From Synergistaceae bacterium (GTDB lineage Bacteria > Synergistota > Synergistia > Synergistales > Aminobacteriaceae): a DNA stretch of 32,073 nt. Position 1 is the stretch's first letter; the number at the start of each line of letters is the position of its first letter. Below are positions 10,536 to 26,252 of the stretch, piece by piece. Under the pieces are notes generated by a model, which saw only the letters and a list, made by a program, of their open reading frames with translations, did not search any database and had not been told where the DNA came from. The translations under genes were made by a program, and so were the position numbers. The stretch spans positions 1 to 32,073 of the forward strand of contig JAFSUP010000092.1 of the NCBI GenBank assembly GCA_017445205.1, written 5' to 3'.

Positions 10536-12488
10536 ATGCACAAAAAATTTTTCCCCGCGATTTTGTTTTTATTAATCTTCGCGTCGTGTTCGTATGGTGC
10601 GGAGAGCTTGAAAAATCTTTTTTGGCGACGCGCTTGGCCGGAGATGGAAACACAATTTAATTCGCTCAAAAAGAAAACTGCAAACGACTACTCGCTCATG
10701 GCCAACGCTTACAGATTTCAAAATAAATGGCAAGAAGCCGTCGAACTTCTCGAAACTCATTCAAAAAATTTCCCGGCGTCCGTTCGTCCTTACGCTGATA
10801 TGACACGGCTGCTCGGCTACGAAAATCTTAATCAAGATAAAAAAGCTCTAACGCTCGCGGACAGTCTCTATAAAAACGCTCCGGCAGATCTGAAATATTA
10901 TGTCGCACTCGCTCAATATCGAATTTATGACAAAAATCAGGATTCAAAAAATTCTCTTTCAGCGTTAAATCGAATGTTGGCGAACGCAGGCACCGATGAA
11001 CGAAAAATTTACACACTCACGCGCTTGATAAAATTTAACACAAGCAATCAAGTTGAAAATGCCTTGAAGCTGCTAGAACTTCAAGGGAGCAACAAAGAGG
11101 CCGCGGCGGTGTTATCGCAAGTTAAAAACATGAACAACAATATCAAAACGGCGCTTGGAATTTATCATCACACTATGGGCGAAAATCAAAAGGCTCTCGA
11201 ATATCTGAACACAGCGACGGGACGCAAGGCTCTTTATTACAAAGCGTGGGCGAACTCGCGATTGAAACAAAACGATAACGCTTTGAATTTGTGGGGCAAT
11301 CTCGCAATAAGTGGCAACTCTTACGCAGCTAGCTCCGTAACTCGTCTCGGCAATCTTGCTAAAGACAAAGGCATGAAAGAAAAGACTATGCGAGTTCTTG
11401 AAAGAATTGCACGAGAACGTCGCGGAAATGTTCAGGCGCGCGCTCTTCAGGCTCTTGTTAATCTCACTGGCAAAGACAATCCGCAAGCAAGAGATATTTA
11501 CGAAGCTCAAATTTTGAAATCTTTCCCCGGCACAAATTTTTCTTTCAATGTCTTATGGGCGAGAGCTTGGCGAAATCTCGACGCCGGTAACGCTGCCGAG
11601 GCCGTGAAATTATTTCGACAGACCGACGCGCCGGACGTTACTTTTTATAAACGCGCAAGAATTTTATATTGGCTCGCTCACGCGCAACAACTCGCTGGGC
11701 AAAAACAAGCCGCGCAAAACACTCTTAACACTCTCAAAAATAAATATCCGCTCACGATTTACGGACTTTTGATTAATCCGAATCCCAAAATTCTCAATGG
11801 AACAAACCCGAATTTGAATCTCAAGCCCTCGGAGCTCGAAGAATGGGGATTTATTAATCACGCTTACTTAAGGCTCTCACGCCCGAAGGCAACCGCGCGG
11901 GAATTATATCGAGCTTTGATTTTGTCGCAATGGCTCGGGCTCGAAGAAAGTTACTCCGAAGCTCGCAGGCTTGAATCTTTAATGACTTCTAGTGCGACGC
12001 TTTATCGTTCGGACTTAGAAGCGCTTTATCCGCGGCCTTATAAAAATCTCGTTGACGCTGCGGCCAAACAGTACGGCGTCGAAAATAATTTCGTTTGGGC
12101 GATAATGCGTCAGGAAAGTGCGTTCAAAGTCAGCGCTAAGAGTTGGGTCGGTGCGGCGGGATTGATGCAACTTATGCCCGCTACTGCTAAAGAAGAGGCC
12201 AAGCGCGCGGGGCTCAAAAATTACGATTTATACAACGCAAGCGACAATATTAAATTAGGAACGTCGCACTTAGGTTGGCTCGGCAAAAATTTCGCGAGAA
12301 AAGAATACGTCATGGCAGCGTACAACGCTGGAAGCGGCAACGCTCGTAAATGGCTCAAAGCCGTAGGTGAACGCGCAGACTTGCCACACTGGATCGAGGC
12401 CGTGAAATTCGACGAAACTAACGGCTATGTTCAAAGAGTTTCAGCGAATTTAGAAATTTACAGACTGCTTTATGGCAATGTCAGATAA
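10536..12488 (+). CDS. Soluble-type lytic murein transglycosylase (Slt family)
   Basis: 650 residues, close to E. coli Slt70. A signal peptide (MHKKFFPAILFLLIFASCSYGA; FASC could be a weak lipobox) is followed by a long alpha-superhelical region of TPR-like repeats (about 25-490). A C-terminal SLT domain (about 505-640) has the catalytic Glu527 in MRQESAF, the GLMQLMPATA motif and MAAYNAGSGNARKW. It cleaves the MurNAc-GlcNAc bond of peptidoglycan with 1,6-anhydroMurNAc formation, in the periplasm. AAGGAGA lies 12 nt before the ATG. The 3' end overlaps tilS by 17 nt, indicating translational coupling. A periplasmic superhelical Slt supports a diderm host. Confidence 0.92.
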   Translation: MHKKFFPAILFLLIFASCSYGAESLKNLFWRRAWPEMETQFNSLKKKTANDYSLMANAYRFQNKWQEAVELLETHSKNFPASVRPYADMTRLLGYENLNQDKKALTLADSLYKNAPADLKYYVALAQYRIYDKNQDSKNSLSALNRMLANAGTDERKIYTLTRLIKFNTSNQVENALKLLELQGSNKEAAAVLSQVKNMNNNIKTALGIYHHTMGENQKALEYLNTATGRKALYYKAWANSRLKQNDNALNLWGNLAISGNSYAASSVTRLGNLAKDKGMKEKTMRVLERIARERRGNVQARALQALVNLTGKDNPQARDIYEAQILKSFPGTNFSFNVLWARAWRNLDAGNAAEAVKLFRQTDAPDVTFYKRARILYWLAHAQQLAGQKQAAQNTLNTLKNKYPLTIYGLLINPNPKILNGTNPNLNLKPSELEEWGFINHAYLRLSRPKATARELYRALILSQWLGLEESYSEARRLESLMTSSATLYRSDLEALYPRPYKNLVDAAAKQYGVENNFVWAIMRQESAFKVSAKSWVGAAGLMQLMPATAKEEAKRAGLKNYDLYNASDNIKLGTSHLGWLGKNFARKEYVMAAYNAGSGNARKWLKAVGERADLPHWIEAVKFDETNGYVQRVSANLEIYRLLYGNVR

Positions 12489-13539
12489 ATTTTATAAATC
12501 CGAAATCCCTTTTGAACTTTCAGATTATGTTCTAAAAAAATATTTTGAAGACACGGGCAAGCGTCAAGGCTGGTTCCCGGCAAATAACAGGGGCGCCGTT
12601 ATCGCAGTATCGGGCGGCGGCGATTCTGTTGCGCTGCTGTGGCTCTTTCATAAATTTTATGATGGAAAAATTTTTGTCGTTCATGTCAACCACGGAATTA
12701 GAGGACACGAAGCCGACGAAGATGAAAATTTTGTGATGAAACTCGCTCAAGAGTTCGGAGTCGAAGCTGCCGCAGAAAAAATTAACGTCCCTGAACAAAA
12801 ATTAAAAGGTGAATCGCTAGAAGCCGCGGCCCGTCGTCTAAGACGCGAGGCAATTTGCGAAATAATCCATCAAAAATTTCCTACTTCCTACTTTCTAACT
12901 CCTACTTGCTTTCTTGGACACAATCGCGACGACTTGGCCGAAACTGTTTTATTTAATATTTTGCGAGGCTCCGGGATTCGTGGCGCCGTCGGAATGACCG
13001 AATGCACAGAATATAACGAAATAAAATTTTTTCGGCCGCTCTTAGGACTTCGGCGCGATTTTTTGCGGGAGATTTTGAAAGTCAGAAAAATTCCTTGGCG
13101 CGACGACAGCACTAACAACGAAACCGAATACACTCGAAATTTCATTCGATTGAAGATTCTTCCATTGATAAATAGCAAAATTAATTCTTCCGCCATTGAA
13201 CACCTTGCAAATTTTGGCGAAGACATGCGCGCATTAAGACAGGCTGAAGACGAACGAAGCCGAGAATTATTAGAGCGTTGCAGGGATTCAGATTTTCAAA
13301 ATTTAGTTTTAAGTCGAAAAATTTTGCGCACGTTCACGAACGAAGAAAGAGCTTTAGTAATTCGTGAGGCCGGGCGAAATTTAAATCTGAAAACTTTATC
13401 GCGCGAACGTTGCGAAAAACTTGCGAATTTAATTGCGAAGTCGTCAAATTTTATTTTTCAATGGAGCAGAAAAATGACAATTAAAAGTGAAAATGGCAAA
13501 ATAATTTTTGAAGGGAGCGAAAACGAAAATGACGCTTGA
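12472..13539 (+). CDS. tilS: tRNA(Ile)-lysidine synthase, with a repeat-derived insertion
   Basis: 355 residues. The PP-loop ATP-binding motif SGGGDS is at 47-52, VHVNHGIRG follows, and GHNRDDLAET is the family's second signature at 149-158. The enzyme converts C34 of the AUA-reading tRNA-Ile to lysidine and is normally essential. Between the RREAICEII helix and GHNRDD lie residues 136-147 (FPTSYFLTPTCF), encoded by heptad tract B. This spacing is about 6-7 residues longer than in E. coli or B. subtilis TilS as I recall them. The frame stays open, so the gene is probably functional. Start ATG 12472 or 12478; no good Shine-Dalgarno, overlapping slt. The 3' end overlaps the hook protein gene by 11 nt. 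Confidence 0.93.
   Translation: MAMSDKFYKSEIPFELSDYVLKKYFEDTGKRQGWFPANNRGAVIAVSGGGDSVALLWLFHKFYDGKIFVVHVNHGIRGHEADEDENFVMKLAQEFGVEAAAEKINVPEQKLKGESLEAAARRLRREAICEIIHQKFPTSYFLTPTCFLGHNRDDLAETVLFNILRGSGIRGAVGMTECTEYNEIKFFRPLLGLRRDFLREILKVRKIPWRDDSTNNETEYTRNFIRLKILPLINSKINSSAIEHLANFGEDMRALRQAEDERSRELLERCRDSDFQNLVLSRKILRTFTNEERALVIREAGRNLNLKTLSRERCEKLANLIAKSSNFIFQWSRKMTIKSENGKIIFEGSENENDA
12878..12914 (+). repeat. Heptad-repeat tract B inside tilS
   Basis: TTCCTAC TTCCTAC TTTCTAA CTCCTAC TTGCTTT: five period-7 units in the coding sequence, matching the intergenic tracts. It is read in frame as PTSYFLTPTCF. Three heptads are 21 nt, so they can be inserted without a frameshift. Confidence 0.8.
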
Positions 13540-16009
13540 AAATCAGGTCGAAGAATTATTACAAGACTTTGAAAAATTAAAAAATCTCTTGACGCGAAAA
13601 GCCGCCGAAATTCATCAACGCGAATTATTAAAGGATATTGACGCACGCCGCGCAGATTGGGAACGTCGCTCAGCTCTTTTTGTGCCGTCGAAACAGCGAC
13701 TTGAGAGAGGCGGAAAAACTCTTGAGCTTGGTGAAGATTACGAAGTCATAAAAGAACTTCGGGCAATGCGCGAGAAAAATAAAATTCGTCAGGCCGCTCT
13801 TCGTGACGAAATGACGACCGCGCGCGCAGACCTTCGAAACGCGGAAGAAGCTTTGAATATCATTGAGGGCGAATATCGCGATAAACTCGCCGCGCAAACT
13901 CAACTTCAAAATATCGTGCAGCGGGTTAAGGGTCTTGACGAACAAATTAAAGACCGTCAGGAAGCTGTTAAACAAACTCGCGAAGAATATATGGAGGCCG
14001 AACGACAGAGAAAAGAATGCGCAGAACGCGTCGAAAAAGAGCGAATCGAGCTTGAAAAATTAGAACTCGCGATGCGTGAGACAAGAAAATTTTTGCAATT
14101 TCATTCGATTGATGAAAAATTACAGACGGGATTGGCTGGGATTCAAAAATGTTTTTCAATGTTCGAGAAGGCGGAAGCGCGACGAGCCGAATTAAAAACT
14201 TCGTGGAATAAGGCAATCGAACAACGTCAACAGGCTCAAATTGTCCTTAATGATCGCTCAACGACGCTTGCGGACTCCACGCACAGCCTCGCCGTTCATG
14301 AAAAATTTTTTGTGAAGGCGCGATCGTTTTATGAAAGTTCTCTCAAGGGCAAGACCATAGCTGAATGGCGCGAAATCTGCGACAGAAATACGCAACGACT
14401 TGCCGACCTTGATGAACTCTATAAAAAATTTCAGGCCGTTCGCGACCTTGAAGAACGAGTGAAAAATTTTCAGGAAATCAAAACTCGAATCCAACAAGAG
14501 ACCCGTAATCTTAATATTCGAGATGTCGAACAGTCAGGACGGATTAACGAACTTCAAGCCGAAGTCGCAAAACTTGAAAAGCGTTCGGAACTTCTAAAAC
14601 GCATTCAAGATATTGAAGCGGTCCGTGAACTTTTACAAGACGGTTTGCCTTGCCCATTGTGCGGCTCAATTTCTCACCCTTATGTTTCAGGCGCGGCCAT
14701 TCCAGACCCTGAAGAAATTCACAGACAGCTTTACGACACTCAAAGAGCGCTCGATAAACTTCACGACGAACTTGCTGCGCGTCAGGCCCGCGTGGGGAAA
14801 TTAGGCGAAGAATTTTCTTCCGTGTCGAATGACGAAGCAGAATTAAAAACTCAAATTAACGAACTTAAAGCCGAAATCGCTTCCCGCGTTTCTGTGCTAG
14901 GCTTGAGCTTCAGTCAGGGAATTTCGCCTTTTGAAGAAATCGACAAAGCGCGACAGAAGGCCCGCGACGCTCTCCAACTTGCGCGCAACAACGCCGAAGC
15001 CGCTGAAGCCGCCGAAGCCGACATGAAGACAGCAAGCGAAGAATTAGAATCGATTCGTGAGAAACGCGAGGCTGCCTCTCATTCGTATCAAGAAGCGCTG
15101 TTCAGTTTGCAAAATTCTAAAACTCACGAAGAACAAATCGCAGGCGAGTTCAAAACTCAAGAAGAGACCGTCGCAACTCTGAAACGCGAATTAATTTCAC
15201 AGATTATGCCTTACGGTTATAAATCCGTTCCCGACAAGAACCCCGGCCAAGTCGTCGAAGCTCTCGAAAAACGAATGAACGAATGGACCGACAACGCAAA
15301 TCGCAGCGATGTCCTTGAACACGAACTTTCAGCGGCAAATTCTAAAATGACGAGGCTAAAAAAGAATGCAGAGTCTTTGCGCGTGAAGCGTGATGAGCTA
15401 CAGAGCCGAGTTAAAGCCACAGAGGCCGAGCGAGATAGCGTGCAACAGCAGCGTATTGTAATTTTCGCGTCAAAAGTTCCTGATGATGAAATTGCAAGAA
15501 TGAATTCAAACGTCGAAGCGCTTCGCACTCGATTAAGTGAACGCCGCGAAACTAAAAACGAACGCGCTTTGAACCTCGACAGAATTTTAACTGAAATTCA
15601 CGGTGTAGAAACAGAAATGGCCAAGGGCCGCGAAGAACTTCAACGCTACGAAATTAATTTTGGCAAAAAATTATTGACTTTGGGATTTCGTAACGAAGAT
15701 GATTATGCCGCCGCATGTCTGACGCCGGAAGAACGTCGAGAACTTCAAACGAAGTTGCGCGAGCTTACTCAAGAAGATTTGGAACTGAACGCCGACAAAG
15801 AAAACGCGCAGGCGAAACTTCTTGAACTTCAATCGGGAGCAAGTGCCACGACTGACGAACTAAGCGCGGAATTGAAAAAATTAAAAAATTCTCTTGATGA
15901 AATTCGGGCCAAGGGCTACAAAAATTCCGAACTCGAAAGAATAGACGGCGAATTTGTTCCGGAGATTAAAAATTTAGTTTTATTATGCGGATTGCCGGAG
16001 GTGTTTTAA
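13529..16009 (+). CDS. Head-less SbcC/Rad50-like zinc-hook coiled-coil protein
   Basis: 826 residues from the ATG at 13529 (GAAGGGAGCG upstream; overlaps the tilS stop by 11 nt). Almost the whole protein is charged coiled coil. Residues 375-386 read CPLCGSISHPYV, the SbcC/Rad50 zinc hook, flanked by arms of about 374 and 445 residues. Around residues 45-95 the sequence (RRSALFVPSKQRLE ... LELGEDYEVIKELRAM) resembles the coil following the N-terminal head in SbcC. There is no Walker A, Q-loop, LSGGE signature or Walker B, which full SbcC (about 1000-1200 residues) needs for ATPase and DNA binding, and no SbcD nuclease in the window. The frame is open for 2.5 kb without decay, so it looks maintained. 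It could be a domain-loss form, or an unrelated coil with a convergent hook. Confidence 0.8.
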   Translation: MTLENQVEELLQDFEKLKNLLTRKAAEIHQRELLKDIDARRADWERRSALFVPSKQRLERGGKTLELGEDYEVIKELRAMREKNKIRQAALRDEMTTARADLRNAEEALNIIEGEYRDKLAAQTQLQNIVQRVKGLDEQIKDRQEAVKQTREEYMEAERQRKECAERVEKERIELEKLELAMRETRKFLQFHSIDEKLQTGLAGIQKCFSMFEKAEARRAELKTSWNKAIEQRQQAQIVLNDRSTTLADSTHSLAVHEKFFVKARSFYESSLKGKTIAEWREICDRNTQRLADLDELYKKFQAVRDLEERVKNFQEIKTRIQQETRNLNIRDVEQSGRINELQAEVAKLEKRSELLKRIQDIEAVRELLQDGLPCPLCGSISHPYVSGAAIPDPEEIHRQLYDTQRALDKLHDELAARQARVGKLGEEFSSVSNDEAELKTQINELKAEIASRVSVLGLSFSQGISPFEEIDKARQKARDALQLARNNAEAAEAAEADMKTASEELESIREKREAASHSYQEALFSLQNSKTHEEQIAGEFKTQEETVATLKRELISQIMPYGYKSVPDKNPGQVVEALEKRMNEWTDNANRSDVLEHELSAANSKMTRLKKNAESLRVKRDELQSRVKATEAERDSVQQQRIVIFASKVPDDEIARMNSNVEALRTRLSERRETKNERALNLDRILTEIHGVETEMAKGREELQRYEINFGKKLLTLGFRNEDDYAAACLTPEERRELQTKLRELTQEDLELNADKENAQAKLLELQSGASATTDELSAELKKLKNSLDEIRAKGYKNSELERIDGEFVPEIKNLVLLCGLPEVF

Positions 16010-16010
16010 C

Positions 16011-16730
16011 GTGAATATAACGTGGGAAGAACTTGGATTTTTTTTAACGCGATTAAAAAATTTGTCCGTCAGCAAGAGTATCACGCTTGGCGACAAAGGC
16101 GGCTTCTGTGTTTCGACGGGCTGCGATATTGAAAGCTGGGTTTATTATCCTGAACGCGTGAAAGATTCCTCAATTGTTGAGAGCGTCATAAAATTTTTCA
16201 AAGACGAAAAAATTTCTTTCATGTGGCCTTTGTATGACGGCGGCGAAAAATTTCTTGAAGATGCCGGGCTACTTTACGCAGGGAGTTTAACGGGAATGAT
16301 TTACGAGCCAGAAAAATCAAATTCGATTCCAGAATCTCAAAAAATAAATCCTGATGATTGGGCGCGAACTGCGTGGCACGGCTTCGGAGGAGGAGTTGAC
16401 GACGTGCCAGAAAATTATTTTGCTCTCGTGAGAAATTTTAATGATGCGCCGGAATTTTCTCTTCATGCTCACAAGACCGGCAAAAATTACGACGGCACTT
16501 TTATGTTAGTCAATGAGCCTGACTCGACGGGAGTTTATTATTTAGCGACGGTCCCGGAGATGCGCCGACGTGGAGTAGCAAACGTGATGTTGAAAGAAAT
16601 TTGTAAATTGTCGAACGGCAAAAAAATTCTTCTTCAAGCGACACCAATGGGACTTCCGTTTTATAAAAATTTTGGCTTCAAAGAGCTTTGCAAGATTCCA
16701 GTTTATTCAGATTCAAACGATGTGTTCTAA
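16011..16730 (+). CDS. GNAT-family N-acetyltransferase
   Basis: 239 residues from a GTG at 16011, one base after the stop of the hook protein, so probably translated by coupling. The C-terminal half is a GNAT fold: VYYLATVPEMRRRGVANVMLKE is motif A, with the acetyl-CoA-binding RRRGVA loop. QATPMGLPFYKNFGFKELC is motif B with the usual Y-x-x-x-GF ending. The N-terminal 120 residues (SWVYYPERVKDS, FMWPLYDGG) are less typical and may form a second degenerate GNAT-like half. The acetyl acceptor cannot be predicted. It ends at a convergent junction containing heptad tract C. Confidence 0.8.
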   Translation: MNITWEELGFFLTRLKNLSVSKSITLGDKGGFCVSTGCDIESWVYYPERVKDSSIVESVIKFFKDEKISFMWPLYDGGEKFLEDAGLLYAGSLTGMIYEPEKSNSIPESQKINPDDWARTAWHGFGGGVDDVPENYFALVRNFNDAPEFSLHAHKTGKNYDGTFMLVNEPDSTGVYYLATVPEMRRRGVANVMLKEICKLSNGKKILLQATPMGLPFYKNFGFKELCKIPVYSDSNDVF

Positions 16731-16734
16731 AAAA

Positions 16735-16790
16735 AATTAGGAAATAGAACTTTACTTTCTACCTCCTAATTCCCAACTCCTACTTGCCTT
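16735..16790. repeat. Heptad-repeat tract C (hairpin form) between convergent genes
   Basis: AATTAGG AAATAGA ACTTTA CTTTCTA CCTCCTA ATTCCCA ACTCCTA CTTGCCT. A 12-bp imperfect stem (TAGGAAATAGAA with TTCTACCTCCTA, two mismatches) sits in its left half. It fills the gap between the GNAT stop and the DUF1275 stop, so it may be a bidirectional transcript end. Confidence 0.75.
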
Positions 16791-17554
16791 TAATGCCCAT
16801 GTGGTTTCAAATCTAACATTGCCTTCTCGTAAATCAGATCCGAACGCAGCAAAAATATAAAACACAACGTTAGCGGCGCAATAGCGAGCCAAATACTTTT
16901 TTCGCCGAAGTAATTACAAGCGAACGTCATAAATGTTCCACCTATAAAGAACGCTAAAATTATTCTTGCGTGCTTCGTAGCTTTTTTTCGTGCTTCGGCT
17001 TCTTGTTCATGATGTCGAATTATCCGCGCTAAGCTGATTCCGATTTGTCGAACGTGATTGGTTATGAACGTCGTAGCCATTGGAATGCCTTCGGCCTGCC
17101 TGAACGTGTTAAATTGCATCGAACAAAGAAAACTTATTACTATCTGTGCGATTTGGTCCGGCCACGTCAGCGGAACGAATCCCAAAATGAAAAGCGTGAT
17201 TATTTCGATTCCGACCAGCAGAGTATCCCAGCGAATAAAATGAGAATGTCGGACTTTCTCCGGCAAAATTTCAGAAATAATCGTGCCTAATATATACGCT
17301 GTGAACGGGATAAAATAATAAAAGCCTTCTTTTATCTCGCCACTGCCGATTGCCATTGCCATTTTTACAATATTGCCGGTTTGAGCGTTGCTGAAGACTC
17401 CGCCACGAAGATTATAAGTGTAAAGTCCCATCATTCCGGCGGCGATTGTCAGAAGTTCAAAGATAAAATATTTTTCACACGTTAAATAAAATTCCCGATG
17501 AAGTTCTTTGTGAAGCTCTTTATGTTGTTCAGTCTTAAAATGATTTTCTTGCAT
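16790..17554 (-). CDS. DUF1275 (YoaK-type) membrane protein
   Basis: 254 residues, the usual DUF1275 length. After a His/Glu/Lys-rich N-terminus (residues 2-25) come about six hydrophobic segments, with the family motif GGVFSNAQTGNIVKMAMAIG and a later GIPMATTFITNHVRQIG segment. The family is an inner-membrane protein of unknown function. The start ATG at 17554 has its ribosome binding site supplied by heptad tract D (AGGAAG about 6 nt upstream, GGAGG further out). It lies 23 bp after the helicase-nuclease stop on the same strand, so it is probably the last gene of that unit. Confidence 0.85.
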   Translation of the reverse strand: MQENHFKTEQHKELHKELHREFYLTCEKYFIFELLTIAAGMMGLYTYNLRGGVFSNAQTGNIVKMAMAIGSGEIKEGFYYFIPFTAYILGTIISEILPEKVRHSHFIRWDTLLVGIEIITLFILGFVPLTWPDQIAQIVISFLCSMQFNTFRQAEGIPMATTFITNHVRQIGISLARIIRHHEQEAEARKKATKHARIILAFFIGGTFMTFACNYFGEKSIWLAIAPLTLCFIFLLRSDLIYEKAMLDLKPHGH

Positions 17555-17555
17555 T

Positions 17556-17591
17556 TTTACTTCCTACCTCCTACTTCCTAATTCCTAGTTG
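17556..17591 (+). repeat. Heptad-repeat tract D bridging two genes
   Basis: TTTACTT CCTACCT CCTACTT CCTAATT CCTAGTT on the plus strand. On the coding (minus) strand it reads ACTAGGAATTAGGAAGTAGG... and supplies the last residues and TAG of the helicase gene, plus the Shine-Dalgarno-like AGGAGG/AGGAAG of the DUF1275 gene. Confidence 0.8.
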
Positions 17592-20500
17592 AACAAAAGG
17601 CACAACCTTTCTTAAATGGACACGCTGCGCAATGCTCTAATTTTGGTTTTAAAATTCCTGACGCGCAATTTTCAGCAGCTGTTAGCACCCGCGATTTAAT
17701 TTCATCAAAATTTTTGCAAACTCGCTCCTTAAAAATTCCTTCACGCAAAAACGCTGTTGTAGTTTTAATTTCCTCATGGCCGGTTAGCTCGTGAGCGACA
17801 AGCGCGTAAAAGTCCAACTGTGATTCATAAAGTCCCGACGGCGCATTGTCGATCGCGGTTATTTTGTAGTCAATCAAATTATTTTCGTAAATTGCGTCAA
17901 TGGCTCCTGCAAGCGCTGTGTGAGAGTCGAGCCGAAGATTAAATTTTTTTTCGCGCTGAACGTCTTCACGAGTTCTTAACGTGAGGCCAAGAGCAGACGT
18001 GGCGAAACGCCCGAGCCATTCTCGAAGAGTTGATTTCGTTTTCGGACTTCGCCAAATTTTTCGAAGCTGCGCCGGGATTCGTGTAATCATTTCGCGGTCA
18101 TTAAGATAATATTCAAGCTCGGCTTCAAAATTTTCGTTTCGTGGCCAACGCGCTAATATCCAGTGCGTAAGCGTTCCTAAGTCTGCACCGCCGATAAAAT
18201 TTTCATCAGTTTCAAAATTTTGTTCACGTTCGCCGAGTTCCCATGATAGAGTTCGTCCTTGGCGATAACGTCTTCGCCACGCGAACGGGCACCACTCAAA
18301 CAAAGAGAACGCACTTGCTGAAAATTGCCGCAAAGAATTTTTCGTTTTTATAATCTCAACGGGCGCCCAAGGATTTTCATTTTCAGAATTTTGATTTTGA
18401 ATTTCTGGAATTTCAACATATTCGGCGAAATTAATTTTATTTTTTAATTTCTCGTCTAGATTTTTCAATAAAAAATCCGTCCATGAATTTTTATACGGCT
18501 CTTGATTTTTATCAACTAGGCCGCAAAAAATTAAACTATCTTGTGCACGAGTGGCAGCAACATAAAATAATCTCGTCTCCTCTTCTAAGTCGCCCTCGTC
18601 CGCTAAAAGAGTTTCCCATTTTGAACACTGCAATCTAGTTTCATCTTTTTTAATTTCGTCTGGCAGGTCTGAAAACACAATCCCTAAATCACGCGACGGG
18701 CGCAAGGGTCTGTTATCGATTCTTTTATTTTTTTGAGTGTCAAAAATTATTGCGACAGGATACTCAAGCCCTTTCGATGAATGCACTGTCCCAAGCCTCA
18801 CGGCATTTTCATTCTCATCATGCCATTTTGGCTCCTCAAATTTTATTGAACTCTTCACCGCACGCGTCAACCATTCCGCGCAAGCCGTCAGGCTAGAAGT
18901 CCCGGACTGCTGAAACGCTCGCGACATTGACAACGCCAGCCGGAAATTTCTCAACACTCGCAGGCGGTCTTGTTCACGATAACACGACAGCCAACGACGG
19001 TCTTTATCAAAAATCGAAAGTACACCGGCAGGGCCTTCGTTTTCACCAATGATAGCGAGATATTCGAGACGCGAATAAGAATCCGGGAAATTTTCTTTTA
19101 TTAAGTCGATTAGTTTTTTTTCTTTTGACATAAGCGTCAGGACTTTCAAGGCGTCCTCTTCGAGAATTTCTGCAAACGGCGACATCAGCCAGCCGGCCAC
19201 AGCAAACGAATCATTGACATCAGCAGCAGCGCGCAACAAGCAAACGACGTCACCAATTTCGCCGCGCGTGAAAAAATCTTCGCTTCGGTCGCGAATTAAC
19301 GGGATATTAAATTTTTCAAAGGCGTCTTCAATTTGAGAATACACACTGCGGGAGCGCAACAAAATCGAAAAATCTGAAAATTTCACGGGCCTGATAATTT
19401 CTTGCGCTTTATCCCAGACCGTCCGGCCTTCGTTGACCCAATTAAAAATTTCGGCAGCGAGATTTTCGGCTAAAAGTTTTCGAGCGTCATCTAAAGTTTC
19501 TTGATTTTCGACTAAAATCACTTTGAAGTCGGGCATGGAGCCATCATCACGTCCGCCATCTTTGAGAGCAGCGTCAATACTTTCATATTTAAGTTCGCGC
19601 ATTACGTCGGATTTTCCAAGGCCGTCGAGCCACAATGAAGAAAAAATTTTATTTATTTTGTCTAAAAGAGATTTTCGGGTTCTGAAACTGACGTTGAGAT
19701 TTACGCGTTTGTCGGCCTTTTTGATAGTTTCGGCGAACAAAGACGGATCGGCATGACGAAATTTATAAATAGATTGCTTAGGGTCGCCCACGGCAAACAA
19801 ACTGGCTTCAGAATTTTTGATTAAGGCTTCAATCATTTGAAATTGCAGCGGGTCAGTGTCTTGAAACTCATCGACGAGAACGTGAGTAAATTTTCTTCGT
19901 GAAGGGTCGTTATCGATAGCGCTCCTAGCATATAAAATCATGTCCGTGAACGACAAGAGGCCGCGGCGACGTTTCATTAAGTCCCACATTCCCCAAGATA
20001 CGGCGCAGAATTTTAATAACGTCTTTCTCATTTGCAATTCTTCCGGGGCAATTTCTTTATCGAAGTTGCGAGAAATTTCTTTTATTAAGTCTGGACGAGA
20101 TTCGCGCCAATTTCCTAAAGTCATTCCTAAAATCTGTTTAAGCGTCGCGAACGGTTCGTATTTGTTGGCAGTGATTTTTTTATCTTCATCAATGACGATA
20201 ACTTGATAAAAATTTTTTAGAGCTTCTATATCTAAAATCGAGTTTGATTTTTGCCAATTTAATAATTTATTTAATCTTCCGCCGGGGCCTTCAGGATTTT
20301 TAGCTTGAGGCAGCGAAATCTCTTCAAAAATTTTCCAGACTTCGCGCCATTCGTCAGCTAAAATTACTTCAACGGCCGGGCGAGTTCTTTCAATTAAGAG
20401 ATCATTAATGTCGTTTTCTGACCACGCTAACATTTGTTCCCACGTATGACCCGATGAAGAGTGAAGCTCTGCTGTAACTCGCGCGAAGTCGCTCAATCTC

Positions 20501-21051
20501 GTTGCGTTCCATCTATTAACGGCGTGAGTGAAATAAGAATCTTGATCGAGAAATTCCGCGTTCTCTCTTAAAACTCTGTCGCCGTAAGTTCGAGCTAGCT
20601 CGCGCAAATTTGCAAAGGCGGCCGCGTTCTTGATCCCTTCCCAAAATTCTTGCTCCTGCTGCGCTGTGATTACATCTGCTGTAGGGTCAATGTCGAGCGA
20701 CAGGCCAGACTCACGAATAATTCTGCCAGCGAAGGCGTGAATAGTCGATATCCAAGTGTCTGAAAGTCCGTCAGAAATTTCGCGTTTTCGTTCCTCATCA
20801 AAATTTGAAAGTTCTGAATTAATTCGTGCGATAATTCTGGTTTTCATTTCTGCAGCGGCTGCTTCAGTGAAAGTCAAAGTTAGAATGTCGGCAGGAATAA
20901 TTTTATTTTCTTCTAAGAGCCTTATATAGCGACTTGTGAGTACCCAAGTTTTTCCGGTTCCGGCACCGGCACCTACGGTTATGATTTTGTCATTTGCTTG
21001 TATAGCATCGCGCTGACCTTCGGGAGTGTCTGGAGGCAAAGTAAATTTCAC
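17578..21051 (-). CDS. UvrD/AddA-like helicase with C-terminal Fe-S PD-(D/E)XK nuclease
   Basis: 1157 residues from a GTG at 21051 (AGGAG 9 nt upstream). Superfamily 1 helicase motifs are present: Walker A GAGAGTGKTW (27-36), LTLTFTEAAAAEM, Walker B VLVDEFQDTD, GDPKQSIYKFRHAD, TVHSSKGLEYP and FYVAATRAQDSLIFCG. The C-terminus is a RecB-type nuclease with GAIDAIY (D1052) and LIDYKI (D1061, K1063). C921 in FEWCPFAW plus C1141-x2-C1144-x5-C1150 match the 4Fe-4S cysteine spacing known from AddB nucleases. A typical AddA lacks that cluster. The protein probably processes DNA double-strand ends. No AddB-like partner lies in the window. The C-terminal TRN and stop come from tract D. Confidence 0.85.
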   Translation of the reverse strand: MKFTLPPDTPEGQRDAIQANDKIITVGAGAGTGKTWVLTSRYIRLLEENKIIPADILTLTFTEAAAAEMKTRIIARINSELSNFDEERKREISDGLSDTWISTIHAFAGRIIRESGLSLDIDPTADVITAQQEQEFWEGIKNAAAFANLRELARTYGDRVLRENAEFLDQDSYFTHAVNRWNATRLSDFARVTAELHSSSGHTWEQMLAWSENDINDLLIERTRPAVEVILADEWREVWKIFEEISLPQAKNPEGPGGRLNKLLNWQKSNSILDIEALKNFYQVIVIDEDKKITANKYEPFATLKQILGMTLGNWRESRPDLIKEISRNFDKEIAPEELQMRKTLLKFCAVSWGMWDLMKRRRGLLSFTDMILYARSAIDNDPSRRKFTHVLVDEFQDTDPLQFQMIEALIKNSEASLFAVGDPKQSIYKFRHADPSLFAETIKKADKRVNLNVSFRTRKSLLDKINKIFSSLWLDGLGKSDVMRELKYESIDAALKDGGRDDGSMPDFKVILVENQETLDDARKLLAENLAAEIFNWVNEGRTVWDKAQEIIRPVKFSDFSILLRSRSVYSQIEDAFEKFNIPLIRDRSEDFFTRGEIGDVVCLLRAAADVNDSFAVAGWLMSPFAEILEEDALKVLTLMSKEKKLIDLIKENFPDSYSRLEYLAIIGENEGPAGVLSIFDKDRRWLSCYREQDRLRVLRNFRLALSMSRAFQQSGTSSLTACAEWLTRAVKSSIKFEEPKWHDENENAVRLGTVHSSKGLEYPVAIIFDTQKNKRIDNRPLRPSRDLGIVFSDLPDEIKKDETRLQCSKWETLLADEGDLEEETRLFYVAATRAQDSLIFCGLVDKNQEPYKNSWTDFLLKNLDEKLKNKINFAEYVEIPEIQNQNSENENPWAPVEIIKTKNSLRQFSASAFSLFEWCPFAWRRRYRQGRTLSWELGEREQNFETDENFIGGADLGTLTHWILARWPRNENFEAELEYYLNDREMITRIPAQLRKIWRSPKTKSTLREWLGRFATSALGLTLRTREDVQREKKFNLRLDSHTALAGAIDAIYENNLIDYKITAIDNAPSGLYESQLDFYALVAHELTGHEEIKTTTAFLREGIFKERVCKNFDEIKSRVLTAAENCASGILKPKLEHCAACPFKKGCAFCSTRN

Positions 21052-21076
21052 GGTTCAAATCTCCTAAATAAAAATA

Positions 21077-21114
21077 TAAAAAAACTGACAGGGCTTTAAG
21101 TATACCCTGTCAGT
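21077..21114 (-). terminator. Intrinsic terminator of the ferredoxin gene
   Basis: A perfect 10-bp stem, ACTGACAGGG/CCCTGTCAGT, with an 11-nt loop (21084-21114). On the minus strand seven T follow. It isolates the ferredoxin from the helicase gene downstream. Confidence 0.88.
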
Positions 21115-21144
21115 GGAAAATTCTGAAATTAAATTAAAAAATTC

Positions 21145-21315
21145 TTATTGTGAAATCGCGCTTACCGGGCAAGTCGAAACGCAGCTGCCACAATCTACAC
21201 AAGCTCCCGCATCAACTCCTGCTTTGCCGTCGTTCACGGAAATTGCTGAAACAGGGCAAGCCCCTACACATGATTCACAACCTACACATACGTCCTTATT
21301 AACTACTGCTGCCAT
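21145..21315 (-). CDS. 2x[4Fe-4S] ferredoxin
   Basis: 56 residues, MAAVVNKDVCVGCESCVGAC ... CVDCGSCVSTCPVSAISQ. Two CxxCxxCxxxCP motifs bind two [4Fe-4S] clusters, as in clostridial ferredoxins, which carry low-potential electrons in anaerobes. AAGGAGGAA lies about 6 nt before the ATG at 21315. An in-frame extension to 21408 has no ribosome binding site and overlaps the promoter. It is a single-gene unit with an extended -10 promoter (21397-21405) and strong terminator. Confidence 0.93.
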   Translation of the reverse strand: MAAVVNKDVCVGCESCVGACPVSAISVNDGKAGVDAGACVDCGSCVSTCPVSAISQ

Positions 21316-21396
21316 TTTAAATTCCTCCTTCTTAAATTTACTGCTCGTTTTAGTTTTTGATTTTTCGTGAAGCCCCTCTTGCCTCACGACGGTGAT

Positions 21397-21405
21397 ATTA
21401 TAGCA
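21397..21405 (-). promoter_or_regulatory. Extended -10 promoter of the ferredoxin gene
   Basis: On the minus strand TGCTATAAT, a perfect extended -10, lies about 80 bp before the ATG. The -35 region is poor, as expected for extended -10 promoters. Confidence 0.6.
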
Positions 21406-21448
21406 CATAAATTCAGTTATGCACGTGTTTTATGAGCCCAACATGAAA

Positions 21449-22204
21449 TTAAAAAACTTTCCAATCTAATCCCCTGCATAGCCACGCGCTCCCTCCGGCC
21501 GAAACGTGAGCTTCGATTTCGGATTTATCGCCCGTCAACGTCGGGACGACAAGATGATTAACACCGACTTCAAAAAAAATTTCTGGTGTAGCAGGGAGGC
21601 CCGGCCCTTGAATAAAACAGCCTTTTTTTTCGCGCAAAATGTTTTGAGTAGATAACAACCAACGGTCGCGAATTGCCTCTGGAGAAAGCCAAACCCATTC
21701 CGCTTCACGAACTCCGCGCGAAAATTCATCTTGCGGGAAACAATTTTGACGCCCCGCGAAACGGTCATCGAAAATTGCGAACCGCCAACCCCAATCACTC
21801 ATAAACGGCAGCAAATCGCGTTCATAACCAAGCACTGCGACTTTGTCAGACCTTGCGCACGTCATCACGGCATCAAGCGGCAAGCCTCCACCAGAGCTAT
21901 CAAACGGAACTAAAGCCGAACACGCTGCACTAGCTGCGGCAAATTCTTGTGGAAATGGCGAAACATAAAGCGCTGCTAATTTTTTCAATGACGCGTTCAA
22001 TAATTCTTCCGTGTGAATGGCGCGGGCCGTATGCGGTTCGACCCGTGAGTCTGGGACAAAACCAACTCCGGCGCGTCCGTCAGACGCTGAAATAAAACTT
22101 GCGTGCCAACCTAAAATTAATTTTGAGACGCGTGCGTCTTGTTTTTGATTGATGATTTCTGAAAGTCGTTCAAAAAAATTAATTGAGTGATTCAAGTTTT
22201 TCAC
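21449..22204 (-). CDS. DUF4213/DUF364-like (putative heavy-metal chelation) protein
   Basis: About 251 residues. The N-terminal part (VSKLILGWHASFISASDGRAGVG ... LKKLAALYVSPFPQEFAAASAACSA) resembles DUF4213. The C-terminal part (KVAVLGYERDLLPFMSDWGWRFAIFDD, then GCFIQGPGLPATPEIFF and NHLVVPTLTGDK) resembles the Rossmann-like DUF364 domain, proposed to bind metal. Homologues often sit near metal or cofactor genes; here a ferredoxin follows 134 bp downstream but on its own promoter. The longest frame starts at a TTG at 22264 and overlaps the ABC-F gene by 86 nt. I prefer the GTG at 22204 (TTG at 22195 is the alternative), overlapping by 26 nt. No catalytic residues can be assigned. Confidence 0.6.
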   Translation of the reverse strand: MKNLNHSINFFERLSEIINQKQDARVSKLILGWHASFISASDGRAGVGFVPDSRVEPHTARAIHTEELLNASLKKLAALYVSPFPQEFAAASAACSALVPFDSSGGGLPLDAVMTCARSDKVAVLGYERDLLPFMSDWGWRFAIFDDRFAGRQNCFPQDEFSRGVREAEWVWLSPEAIRDRWLLSTQNILREKKGCFIQGPGLPATPEIFFEVGVNHLVVPTLTGDKSEIEAHVSAGGSAWLCRGLDWKVF

Positions 22205-24083
22205 CCAAAATTTCCCACTGTGAATATAAATCTTGAATTTCTTTATCGAGATTGCCGCGTTCAATCATAAGATTTTTAATTTTCGTTGAGTCCGATAGCG
22301 TAGCGGGGTCACACAAAGCCGAATCGATTTCATTAAGTTGCGCTTCTGAATCAGAAATTTTTTTCTCACATTGTGAAATTAATTTTTTAATTTCTTTTAT
22401 CTCTTGCTTGTTGGAATTTTCGATTTTGTTTTTACGTTCACGAATTTCAGGGCGCAATTTTGAATTAGAAGATTCTGACGCGGCATTAAGATTTTCTTCG
22501 CGTTTATCCAAAAACCACGAATAATTTCCCGGGTAGTCATATAAAACGCCGTCGCGAATTTCTAAAACTCGTTCGGCCAGAGCGTCAAGAAAATGTCTAT
22601 CGTGAGAAACAATTAACAAAGTCCCTTGATACTTCATCAAAGCTCGTTCAACTATCTCGCGTGTGTCGTGGTCTAAATGGTTAGTCGGTTCGTCAAGAAT
22701 CAAAAAATTTGTTTCTTCGAGCATCAATTTATAAAGAGCGAGCCGGGCTTTTTCGCCGCCGGATAAAATCGCAGCCGATTTATAAATCTCGTCGCCAGAA
22801 AATAAAAACGCGCCCAATAAATTTCTTCGTTCGACGTCATTTAATTTAGAAGAAACAGAGCGAGCTTCTTCCCAAACGGTGTTGGAGTAATTTATATTCA
22901 TCGCGCTTTCTTGTGAGTAATACGCGAACTTGACATTATGACCGAGTTTTATATTTCCGGCCGTGGGAGCTTCGTTCATACTTAGAAGTCTTAATAATGT
23001 AGACTTTCCCGCGCCATTGACTCCGACGAGCGCAACTCGTTCGCCGCGATTTATAATGAAGCTGACGTTTTCAAAAACTCTCAAATCTCCATAGACTTTC
23101 GCAAGCTCAGAAACTTTCAAAACTTCCCAACCGCTTGGCGGTGCTTCAGGGATTTTTATTTTCACGGTCTTGGAGCCGGCAGCAAGTTCTATGCGTTCAA
23201 TTTTTTCAAGTTGTTTTACGCGGCTTTGAACTTGCGCGGCCTTCGTAGCCTTGTATCTAAATCGCGTAATAAAAGATTCGATTTTGTGAATTTCAGTTTG
23301 TTGACGAGCGTAAGCTTTTTCGAGCAATTCTTGATTTTGCGCTTTGACTTCGACATACTCATCATAGCCGAACGGATAAAAATTTATAATTCCGTGTTCA
23401 AGTTCTGCGATGCTATTGACAGTATTTTCCAAAAATCTTTGGTCATGCGACACAGTCACAACCGCGCCGAGATGAGTTCGGAGCCAACCTTCGAGCCATT
23501 CCATACTTTCTGTGTCAAGATGATTCGTCGGTTCATCTAATAATAAGACGTCTGGCGATGATAACAACAATGCGGCCATAGCGATTCTCATTTTCCAACC
23601 GCCAGAGAAGTCGCGACAATTTTTAATTTCGTCGTTTCGTTTGAATCCAAGACCGTGAAGAATTTTCATAGCCATCGATTCAAAAGCAAAGCCGCCAGAA
23701 TTTTCAAAGCGTCGTTCTAAACGCGAATGCTCGTTTAATAATTCGTCATGATTTTCTTGAGTTGCGGATAATTTTTCTTCAACGTCGCGCAATTTTTTCT
23801 CTATAGCAGCGATTCCGGCTTTGTCCTTAAGATACTGCATAAGCGGCACTGGCTCAAGTTCAATCAAATCCTGCGGAAGATAACCGAGAGATAAATTTTT
23901 TGAACGCTCTATGCTGCCGCCGTCGTGTTCTGTTTCATTCATCAGGACGCGAAGCAAAGTAGTTTTGCCAGCGCCATTAGGGCCGACTATGCCGAGGCGT
24001 GCACTGTCAGTAATTCTAAGATTCAAATTTTTAAATATGACTTTTTCGCCGAATGATAAATTCAAATTTTTAATGTCAATCAT
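22179..24083 (-). CDS. ABC-F family ATPase (YdiF/Uup-like)
   Basis: 634 residues with two ABC domains and no membrane segments. Domain 1: Walker A GPNGAGKTTLLR, signature FSGGWKMR, Walker B LLLDEPTNHLD. Domain 2: GVNGAGKSTLLRLL, LSGGEKARL, LILDEPTNHLD. Between them a Lys/Gln-rich coil (KAYARQQTEIHKIESFITRF ... VKQLEKIE) is the ABC-F linker that reaches the ribosomal P-site tRNA. A C-terminal coiled coil (about 560-634) is typical of Uup/YdiF types. Such proteins act on stalled or antibiotic-bound ribosomes; the exact subtype cannot be fixed. The ATG at 24083 has no clear Shine-Dalgarno and follows a nearby -10-like TACTAT, so the leader may be very short. Confidence 0.92.
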   Translation of the reverse strand: MIDIKNLNLSFGEKVIFKNLNLRITDSARLGIVGPNGAGKTTLLRVLMNETEHDGGSIERSKNLSLGYLPQDLIELEPVPLMQYLKDKAGIAAIEKKLRDVEEKLSATQENHDELLNEHSRLERRFENSGGFAFESMAMKILHGLGFKRNDEIKNCRDFSGGWKMRIAMAALLLSSPDVLLLDEPTNHLDTESMEWLEGWLRTHLGAVVTVSHDQRFLENTVNSIAELEHGIINFYPFGYDEYVEVKAQNQELLEKAYARQQTEIHKIESFITRFRYKATKAAQVQSRVKQLEKIERIELAAGSKTVKIKIPEAPPSGWEVLKVSELAKVYGDLRVFENVSFIINRGERVALVGVNGAGKSTLLRLLSMNEAPTAGNIKLGHNVKFAYYSQESAMNINYSNTVWEEARSVSSKLNDVERRNLLGAFLFSGDEIYKSAAILSGGEKARLALYKLMLEETNFLILDEPTNHLDHDTREIVERALMKYQGTLLIVSHDRHFLDALAERVLEIRDGVLYDYPGNYSWFLDKREENLNAASESSNSKLRPEIRERKNKIENSNKQEIKEIKKLISQCEKKISDSEAQLNEIDSALCDPATLSDSTKIKNLMIERGNLDKEIQDLYSQWEILGEKLESLN

Positions 24084-24290
24084 AATGACTTATAGTATCA
24101 TGTCGGTTATTAGAGTGCCCAAGCCAGCTTATAGAAAAATTTTAATTTGGGGGGTTAACGGAATTCGCTCTCATGTTCTTTAATTGCCAGAGCCTATATT
24201 ATTCGACATAAATTCGTTGTCAAATTTTTCGAGCTGTCTGCGTATTGCTTAACTATTGAGTATTCTTCTTTTTGCATATTCGTTTTGAAT

Positions 24291-24932
24291 TTATTTTCCG
24301 TAATGCCTTTTATAAGTTCCTTCCGGATTAACACTGAAAGCTCGTTTGAAAGGGCTGTTGACTTTCACTCTTACAGTATCTTCATCAAGAAATTTTAACG
24401 TTGCTTTCAAATCTCCGTCGCTGGCTTCTAAGATTTTGTTATCATAGTCATAAACGCCGGTGAGTTCTATTTTATCGCCTTGACCGCTGAAAGATACCTC
24501 AAAAGCCATTCCCGAATAATCATATAAAGATAAATACAAGTATGAATCTTTTCCGTTGTCAAAATAAGCGTCGTCAATGTCCCGCACGTCGATTAGTCCC
24601 AACATAATCACCGAAAGTCTTGCGCGAATACCTTCAGCTCTCTCAAGCGTCGCCATAGTATATGCTTCAACTCTTGAATAACCGTCTTCCATGAAAGCTT
24701 GCGCACGAACATCACGATCTCTTGCGATCCATTCGCGTTGATCATCTTTAAATTCGGCGAACTCTTCTTTGCTCATAGATTTCTTTGCTTGGTTGTAAGC
24801 GTTTGTCAATTCTTTGTCGGCCGCTGCGAAGTCAGGATTTTTCTTCATTCTTAAATATTCTGCATCGCTCAAAGCAAACGCAGGAACAGCAAACACAAAA
24901 ATTATTGCCACGACTGAAATTAAACGTTTCAT
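24291..24932 (-). CDS. Secreted LprI/DUF1311-domain protein
   Basis: 213 residues. A signal peptide (MKRLISVVAIIFVFAVPAFA) with an AFA|L cleavage site is followed by a DUF1311 (LprI-like) helical domain at about 22-105. Typical segments are ADKELTNAYNQAKKSMSKEEF and DDQREWIARDRDVRAQAF. The C-terminal half (110-213) is beta-rich and of unknown type. LprI of mycobacteria was described as a lysozyme inhibitor, but DUF1311 proteins are diverse and this one lacks the usual C-x(n)-C pair. Its ribosome binding site (AAAGGATAGG) overlaps the end of the aspartate kinase gene 12 nt upstream, so it belongs to that transcript. Confidence 0.8.
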   Translation of the reverse strand: MKRLISVVAIIFVFAVPAFALSDAEYLRMKKNPDFAAADKELTNAYNQAKKSMSKEEFAEFKDDQREWIARDRDVRAQAFMEDGYSRVEAYTMATLERAEGIRARLSVIMLGLIDVRDIDDAYFDNGKDSYLYLSLYDYSGMAFEVSFSGQGDKIELTGVYDYDNKILEASDGDLKATLKFLDEDTVRVKVNSPFKRAFSVNPEGTYKRHYGK

Positions 24933-24944
24933 AAAAATTCTAAC

Positions 24945-26252
24945 CTATCCTTTCAAAATCATTTCCGTGTATAAGGCTTTGACCGCGCTGTCATAATCTT
25001 CATCGTAAACTCCAAGAATTATATTCAGGGCGTCAGAGCCTTGATCTATCATTCGCACTTTTACGCCAGCATTTGAAAGAGCTGCGAAAACTTTTTCAAA
25101 CATTCCTTTTAGCGTACCCATTCCATGACCAACTATAGCAATTAGTGATAAATTTTTCTCGACCATAATTGAATCAGGGTCAATAACGCGCTCTATGTCT
25201 CTAAGAATTTCATTACGTCTTAAGTCAAACATTGGAGTTTTTACGACAATAGACATTTTGTATATTCCTGAAAGGCAATGTTCGCAAGCTACATGATACT
25301 TTGCAAAAAGTCCAAACAATTTTTCACCGAAGCCATAGAATTTATTTAGTCCATACTTCTCTATGTGAATAACGTTGAAGTTTCTGCGTCCTGCGATACA
25401 AGCAGCTACGCTACGAGAAATTTTTTCAGGCAGTTTTGCACTTATTAACATTCCGTTATTATCTGTCAAGCTGCAAATTTTCATCGGGATTTTTTCTTCT
25501 CGCAACATGAAAATCACGCTGTCTCTTACAATGTGAATACCAATGTAATTTAACTCAACTGCTTCATCGTATGTAATATTTTTAATTAGTTCGGGATTAA
25601 GGACTACAGCAGGGTCAGCGCTGAAAATTTTTGTTGTCTCGCTCCACTTCTCGAACATGTCCGCTTTGAGAGCACGCGCAACTATCGCTCCTGATGAATC
25701 ACCATCGCCTCGTGAAAACGTTTTGACGCTACCGTCAGGCATTGAACCATAAAATCCGGGTATCACCGCATGTTCAAGCGTTCTGAGTTTAGAGAAAACA
25801 GCGACAAACGTTTTGGCTTCGTTCAAAGTTCCGTCGTTGTTAAAGAAAATTATTTCGGAGGCGTCAACAAAGTCCCACTCTAAAGATGCGGCAAGAATTT
25901 TTCCCATTATATATTCACCGCGACTGCCGATATAGTCCGGGCTTTGACCTAGAAATAAATCTTTTTTTAAGTTTGTGATTTCTGCTTCTAAATCGAAATT
26001 TATTTCAAGAATGTCAATGATTTTTTTGAAACGCTTCGAGATTTTCTCTAGCATTTCGTCATAATCTTCGCGGCTGTTGAAACTTGCATGGCTCATAAAG
26101 AGTAAGTCTGTTATCCCGGTGTTGTTATAAGTCTGACCCGGCGCAGAAGCAATGACGTAGCGACGCTCGGGATCAGATTTCACGATTTCGATCGCCCTTT
26201 TTACTCCTTGTGCGTCGGCCATGATACTTCCGCCAAACTTTGAAACAATCAA
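24945..26252 (-). CDS. lysC: Aspartate kinase
   Basis: 435 residues. The kinase domain starts MIVSKFGGSIMADAQGVKRA (KFGG motif) and has SRGDGDSSGAIVARALKADMFEKWSETTKIFSADP, the aspartokinase active-site region. C-terminal ACT domains (about 300-435; SLIAIVGHGMGTLKGMFEKVF) bind amino-acid effectors. It phosphorylates aspartate at the entry of the lysine, threonine and methionine pathways. KFGGSIM replaces the usual KFGGTSV, a mild difference. It starts at TTG 26252 with AAGGAGGAG 6 nt upstream, which fixes the start. No lysine riboswitch fits in the short 5' region. The promoter is probably at 26283-26311. Confidence 0.93.
   Translation of the reverse strand: MIVSKFGGSIMADAQGVKRAIEIVKSDPERRYVIASAPGQTYNNTGITDLLFMSHASFNSREDYDEMLEKISKRFKKIIDILEINFDLEAEITNLKKDLFLGQSPDYIGSRGEYIMGKILAASLEWDFVDASEIIFFNNDGTLNEAKTFVAVFSKLRTLEHAVIPGFYGSMPDGSVKTFSRGDGDSSGAIVARALKADMFEKWSETTKIFSADPAVVLNPELIKNITYDEAVELNYIGIHIVRDSVIFMLREEKIPMKICSLTDNNGMLISAKLPEKISRSVAACIAGRRNFNVIHIEKYGLNKFYGFGEKLFGLFAKYHVACEHCLSGIYKMSIVVKTPMFDLRRNEILRDIERVIDPDSIMVEKNLSLIAIVGHGMGTLKGMFEKVFAALSNAGVKVRMIDQGSDALNIILGVYDEDYDSAVKALYTEMILKG

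Follow-up and report, generated by a model that had tools for sequence, protein, structure and literature searches.

A headless SbcC-derived protein, here called HOOK, is retained in a gut bacterium of the family Synergistaceae and in dozens of related bacteria; it consists of two long coiled-coil arms and a zinc hook. From sequence comparisons, it is nearly certain that the ancestor of HOOK was a long-armed SbcC ('SbcC-L'), from which both ATPase lobes and the adjacent sbcD gene were lost. We propose, with a probability of about 0.5, that HOOK serves as an ATP-independent tether or scaffold, dimerised through the zinc hook and retained from SbcC-L, whose arms would bind one or more partners. 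Relative to the original prediction, which had been made from the DNA letters alone, the results add support for descent from a displaced full-length SbcC, for graded intermediates, and for at least two independent head losses.

The window, that is, the whole stretch of 32,073 nucleotides that was analysed, belongs to an assembly of 1.92 Mb that is 80% complete. Open reading frame analysis, together with domain and HMM searches, placed HOOK (826 aa) on the plus strand at 13529..16009. It is one uninterrupted frame of 826 codons, with its ATG at 13529 and its stop at 16009. The gene is part of a Slt-TilS-HOOK-GNAT cluster, all on the plus strand, that begins with a lytic transglycosylase (SLT) with TPRs (10536..12488). 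This is followed by tilS (12472..13539), which overlaps HOOK by 11 nt, and after HOOK by a GNAT acetyltransferase (16011..16730), whose start adjoins the HOOK stop and has a GGAGG just 5' of it. A GGGAG within tilS (13513..13517, plus strand), read directly from the sequence, is a likely ribosome-binding site for HOOK. Between the two arms lies the zinc hook CPLCGSISHP (residues 375-384; 14651..14680, plus strand). The original prediction of two coiled-coil arms around a canonical hook, in an intact 826-codon frame overlapping tilS, was therefore correct, as was its claim that neither SbcC half is present in HOOK or an adjacent frame (see below). Further along the window, at 17578-21051 on the minus strand, there is an AddA-like helicase-nuclease (UvrD and PDDEXK_1); no AddB was recognised beside it in a Pfam scan of the flanking genes (10536-26252).

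No ATPase domain was detected in HOOK with Pfam or NCBIfam, and its best NCBIfam match to SbcC (NF007600, E = 8e-7) covered residues 295-520 only. When the N- and C-lobes of ten intact Synergistota SbcCs were searched by tblastn, they gave zero matches in the 32-kb window; SbcC arms, by comparison, could be aligned with HOOK at 713 positions (E = 3e-76). Nor were SbcC lobes found by tblastn, frameshifted or flanking, at any HOOK locus of the genus. Profile searches with the lobes, proposed beforehand, agreed with this: custom lobe HMMs recovered 19 of 19 working SbcCs (E <= 7e-58) and gave nothing better than E = 0.25 (Z = 100) against the HOOK proteins. No P-loop lobe was thus found in HOOK, and the flanks were empty by tblastn. 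An HMM of the arms and hook, built from six intact SbcC-Ls (G092, G094, G095, G097, G101, G102), recovered 35 of 35 HOOKs with E values from 1e-121 to 4e-89. Chance or generic coiled-coil similarity is ruled out by these full-length arm scores and by the tree described below.

The survey covered 188 genomes of the phylum, 43 of them from the genus; nearly all are drafts, probably mostly MAGs, and gene absences in them are weak evidence. HOOK was present in 39 of the 43 genus genomes, 35 times at full length (809-843 aa) and four times cut by contig ends. The order Slt-TilS-HOOK was kept across the genus wherever the contig was long enough, which answers a question on the tilS-hook gene order raised with the original prediction. 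GNAT lay directly downstream of HOOK, on the same strand, in 30 of 35 loci, and was absent there in the other five (G062, G076, G077, G078, G079). HOOK was missing from G057 and G069 though tilS was in view, and neither gene was found in two further genus genomes. The hook was retained in 34 of the 35 full-length orthologues. The exception, in G054 (L084, 5947-8400), is otherwise intact but has lost the hook cysteines, the motif being replaced (RELLSGSVSAKYSSALPDPN). This natural hook-less and head-less variant implies that HOOK can in some cases dispense with the zinc hook.

In other genera of the family, the 765-residue arms-and-hook block of HOOK sits inside the SbcC-L proteins, which are 1,230 to 1,296 aa long. 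In the six genomes named above, SbcC-L is an ordinary SbcC with GPTGAGKT, LSGGE and DEGF, encoded directly after sbcD, and the HOOK block aligns with it throughout. Heads decayed by point changes were found in two genera: SbcC-L of G104 has LSEGE and DDGF in place of LSGGE and DEGF, and that of G096 carries DGGF and no longer has the Q-loop glutamine. In three further genera (G036, G045, G090, G091), the heads are wrecked: they are only partly recognisable and lack Walker A, the signature and Walker B, and sbcD does not adjoin the gene. Heads are entirely absent from the genus HOOKs and from G033 and G100. G035 resembles this headless form, although contig ends break up its copy, and the G033 and G035 genomes reach a completeness of only 70-75%. 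Masked bases in the flank of G039 leave the head state not readable there. The SbcC-L of G096 (L066, 5117-8905) is apparently an SbcC that is losing its function; no sbcD was found in this genome, which is 98% complete. G045 holds two differing wrecked-head copies (L060 on C24, L061 on C78), each cut by a contig end, with the hooks CPLCGASTHP and CPLCGALAHP, and it also has a complete SbcCD (L075).

In a tree of 35 rows (IQ-TREE), the genus HOOKs (100/100) were placed at the tip of a ladder, G045 > G036 > G039/G090/G091. The headless G033 and G100 (100/99) were placed beside G096 (100/100), within a clade that holds intact SbcC-Ls. These placements argue for at least two separate complete head losses and at least three head decays. 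HOOK starts about 50 residues past the end of the SbcC-L N-lobe, and the stretch of SbcC-L from the N-lobe to about position 250 is missing from it. The arm base expected to bind SbcD, whose position we take from Mre11-Rad50 structures, has therefore probably been lost.

A genome search for sbcCD, also suggested in advance, found a separate sbcC and sbcD in the window's genome (G000). On contig C74, a TIR-like gene separates sbcD (403 aa) from sbcC; this SbcC, of at least 852 aa and cut by the contig end, has Walker A, LSGGE, DEGF and the hook CPICGATEHP, and its similarity to HOOK is confined to the surroundings of the hook (E = 8e-5). The TIR-like gene (L076, G000:C74, 2553-3854, minus strand) encodes 433 aa, with an N-terminus that matches a PADLOC TIR effector (E = 3e-9). 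In G085, in contrast, sbcD and sbcC are adjacent. Within the genus, which is represented mostly by draft assemblies, 35 genomes had both HOOK and SbcC, 4 had HOOK only, 3 had SbcC only, and 1 had neither. Where contig ends did not truncate them, working SbcCs had open frames of 843-1051 aa. Another intact SbcC was found in G036, G039, G045, G090, G091, G100 and G104 and in nearly all genus members; in genomes with an intact SbcC-L, no second SbcC was detected.

Selection was assessed by simple Nei-Gojobori-type counting on pairs with dS < 1.5. The median dN/dS was 0.08 for HOOK (17 pairs), compared to 0.21 for working SbcC (6 pairs). Over 153 species pairs, mean identity was 61% for HOOK, 62-63% for the lobes of working SbcC and 27% for its arms, and HOOK was more conserved than the SbcC arms of the same species in 153 of 153 pairs. 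Conservation of the HOOK arms extended to polar columns (0.61, compared to 0.65 for hydrophobic ones); the corresponding values for working SbcC arms were 0.23 and 0.35. The hook itself is nearly constant in HOOK, whereas it varies among working SbcCs. In the intact SbcC-Ls, the arms are 46-60% identical and gap-free at an N-lobe identity of 73-77%, compared to 29-42% for the arms of other Synergistota SbcCs at similar head identity. On the evidence of these alignments, the unusually strong constraint on the arms is older than the loss of the heads. For the wrecked-head pair G090/G091, identity is 53% in the N-head and 73% in the arms, the reverse of intact pairs, where heads are more conserved than arms. 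That a head-less hook protein is maintained, as originally predicted, is borne out by 35 intact frames, the near-universal hook and the low dN/dS; the relatives indicate an old, strongly selected gene, not the recent deletion product under relaxed selection that had been considered as a counter-possibility.

Conservation peaks at residues 31-60, 181-210, 361-390, 541-570 and 691-750. In the N arm, all on the plus strand, these include an arm-base block (residues 31-60; 13619..13708; mean column identity 0.71) and an elbow-like break (residues 181-210; 14069..14158; 0.74). In the C arm, also on the plus strand, they include a break roughly opposite that of the N arm (residues 541-570; 15149..15238; 0.73) and an arm-base block (residues 704-750; 15638..15778; about 0.75) at the arm end, from where an SbcC would continue into its head. 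An AF2 monomer model, computed from 11 rows, shows confident long helices (mean pLDDT 83) and no globular head; its pTM of 0.31 makes the global shape unreliable. The helices are interrupted at residues 192-201, at the hook, at 458-466 and at 563-572. If the arms pair antiparallel, the conservation peaks would correspond to base, elbow and apex.

A tether or scaffold with arm-bound partners is the reading we favour, because the arms are conserved as a whole, polar positions included, and well beyond the apex. In the HOOK lineage, the second sbcCD supplies the working SbcCD function. The zinc hook, whose ligand motif is conserved, probably joins two HOOK chains into a rod or a V; Rad50 hooks are described to dimerise stably (PMC6969161). 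Such a dimeric rod would serve as an ATP-independent tether or scaffold, and conserved surfaces on the arms and their bases would provide binding sites for at least one partner, for which the GNAT encoded next to HOOK is a candidate. In a wider sense, a class of ATP-independent zinc-hooked rods may have arisen at least twice in Synergistaceae, SbcC heads being lost after a second SbcCD had taken over catalysis, since the arms already had a separable, sequence-specific role. We would put even odds on this scenario.

The main rival, possible but on balance doubtful, is that HOOK regulates the working SbcCD: the hooks of the two proteins would pair, and the resulting one-headed complex would limit or retarget SbcCD. 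Both carry canonical hooks (CPLCGSISHP and CPICGATEHP), nearly every adequately complete genome whose SbcC-L is headless or wrecked has a second, intact SbcC, and in G069 HOOK and SbcCD are missing together. There is also a precedent from work in human cells, an engineered human Rad50 hook fragment without the ATPase and Mre11 sites that bound wild-type Rad50 and was dominant-negative (PMC4782334). Capping, however, needs the apex only, yet the entire 760-residue arm surface is conserved. Moreover, HOOK is kept in G056, G064 and G073 (91-95% complete), where SbcC was undetected, and it is the hook of HOOK that is nearly constant while that of its supposed target varies.

A two-gene unit of HOOK and the GNAT that follows it, in which the hooked rod would position the acetyltransferase or be its substrate, is unlikely. 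The tight spacing and the 30 of 35 genus loci agree with such a unit, as does the presence of GNAT near SbcC-L in G036, G039, G045, G090, G091, G033, G096, G097 and G099 despite differing upstream neighbours. GNAT is, however, missing from the five loci listed above and beside most intact SbcC-Ls, and it diverges faster than HOOK (about 38% compared to 62% identity between G000 and G085). A split SbcC, in which other genes of the genome would supply the head lobes and these would join HOOK as polypeptides of their own, is logically possible in a genome only 80% complete, but very improbable, as a search for the SbcC N-lobe found at most one per genus genome, the start of the working SbcC. Finally, although heads of the sister-genus copies are visibly decaying (dN/dS 0.17-0.34), the idea that HOOK arose by a recent deletion, or is a displaced SbcC turning into a pseudogene, is already contradicted and ruled out by 35 full-length intact frames, a dN/dS of about 0.08, the hook in 34 of 35 orthologues, and arms more conserved than those of working SbcC.

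Studies of Rad50 and SbcC usually treat the arms and hooks as extensions of the ATPase. In HOOK, the ATPase has been removed by nature, and arms and hook are under selection as strong as that on catalytic heads. Stages of head loss survive in living relatives and offer a natural test of arms and hook alone. The case suggests that the arms of SMC-like proteins can have specific binding roles that do not depend on the motor.

How HOOK relates to known systems can be stated as follows. It shares with SbcC/Rad50 the CxxC zinc hook between two long coiled-coil arms, in the same arm-hook-arm order, and common descent is evident from the arm HMM scores (1e-121 to 4e-89) and from its place in a tree with full SbcCs. 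It has neither the N-lobe with Walker A and Q-loop nor the C-lobe with ABC signature and Walker B, and the SbcD/Mre11 nuclease gene found beside the intact SbcC-Ls examined is absent beside it. HOOK thus belongs by descent to the SbcC lineage, yet without the defining ATPase features it is not an SbcC. The closest Foldseek chains were of SMC/MukB/Rad50 type, beside further coiled coils; their TM scores were poor and informative on architecture only, and no solved structure matching HOOK by sequence was found. SMC and MukB have a globular hinge and ABC heads; HOOK has a zinc hook in the place of the hinge and no head. The archaea-specific SMC-related protein ASRP, a weak coiled-coil match (NF045487, E = 1e-5), is described as a member of the SMC ATPase superfamily (PMC9389158), whereas HOOK has no ATPase. 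LmuB (Lamassu) and JetC (Wadjet) show weak coiled-coil similarity to HOOK (E = 1e-8), but LmuB has an ATPase head and lmuA/lmuC as neighbours, while HOOK is headless and lies among Slt, TilS and GNAT. A reading of HOOK as a defence system was rejected, the matches being weak and confined to coiled coil, and no Lamassu or Wadjet partners being recognised beside it. In the titles and abstracts of the literature searched, mostly open-access, no natural headless SbcC/Rad50 or SMC was reported, engineered fragments only. The engineered Rad50 zinc-hook fragments (PMC4782334) resemble HOOK in having a hook without ATPase or Mre11 site; they are laboratory constructs, whereas HOOK is natural, has full arms and is under selection.
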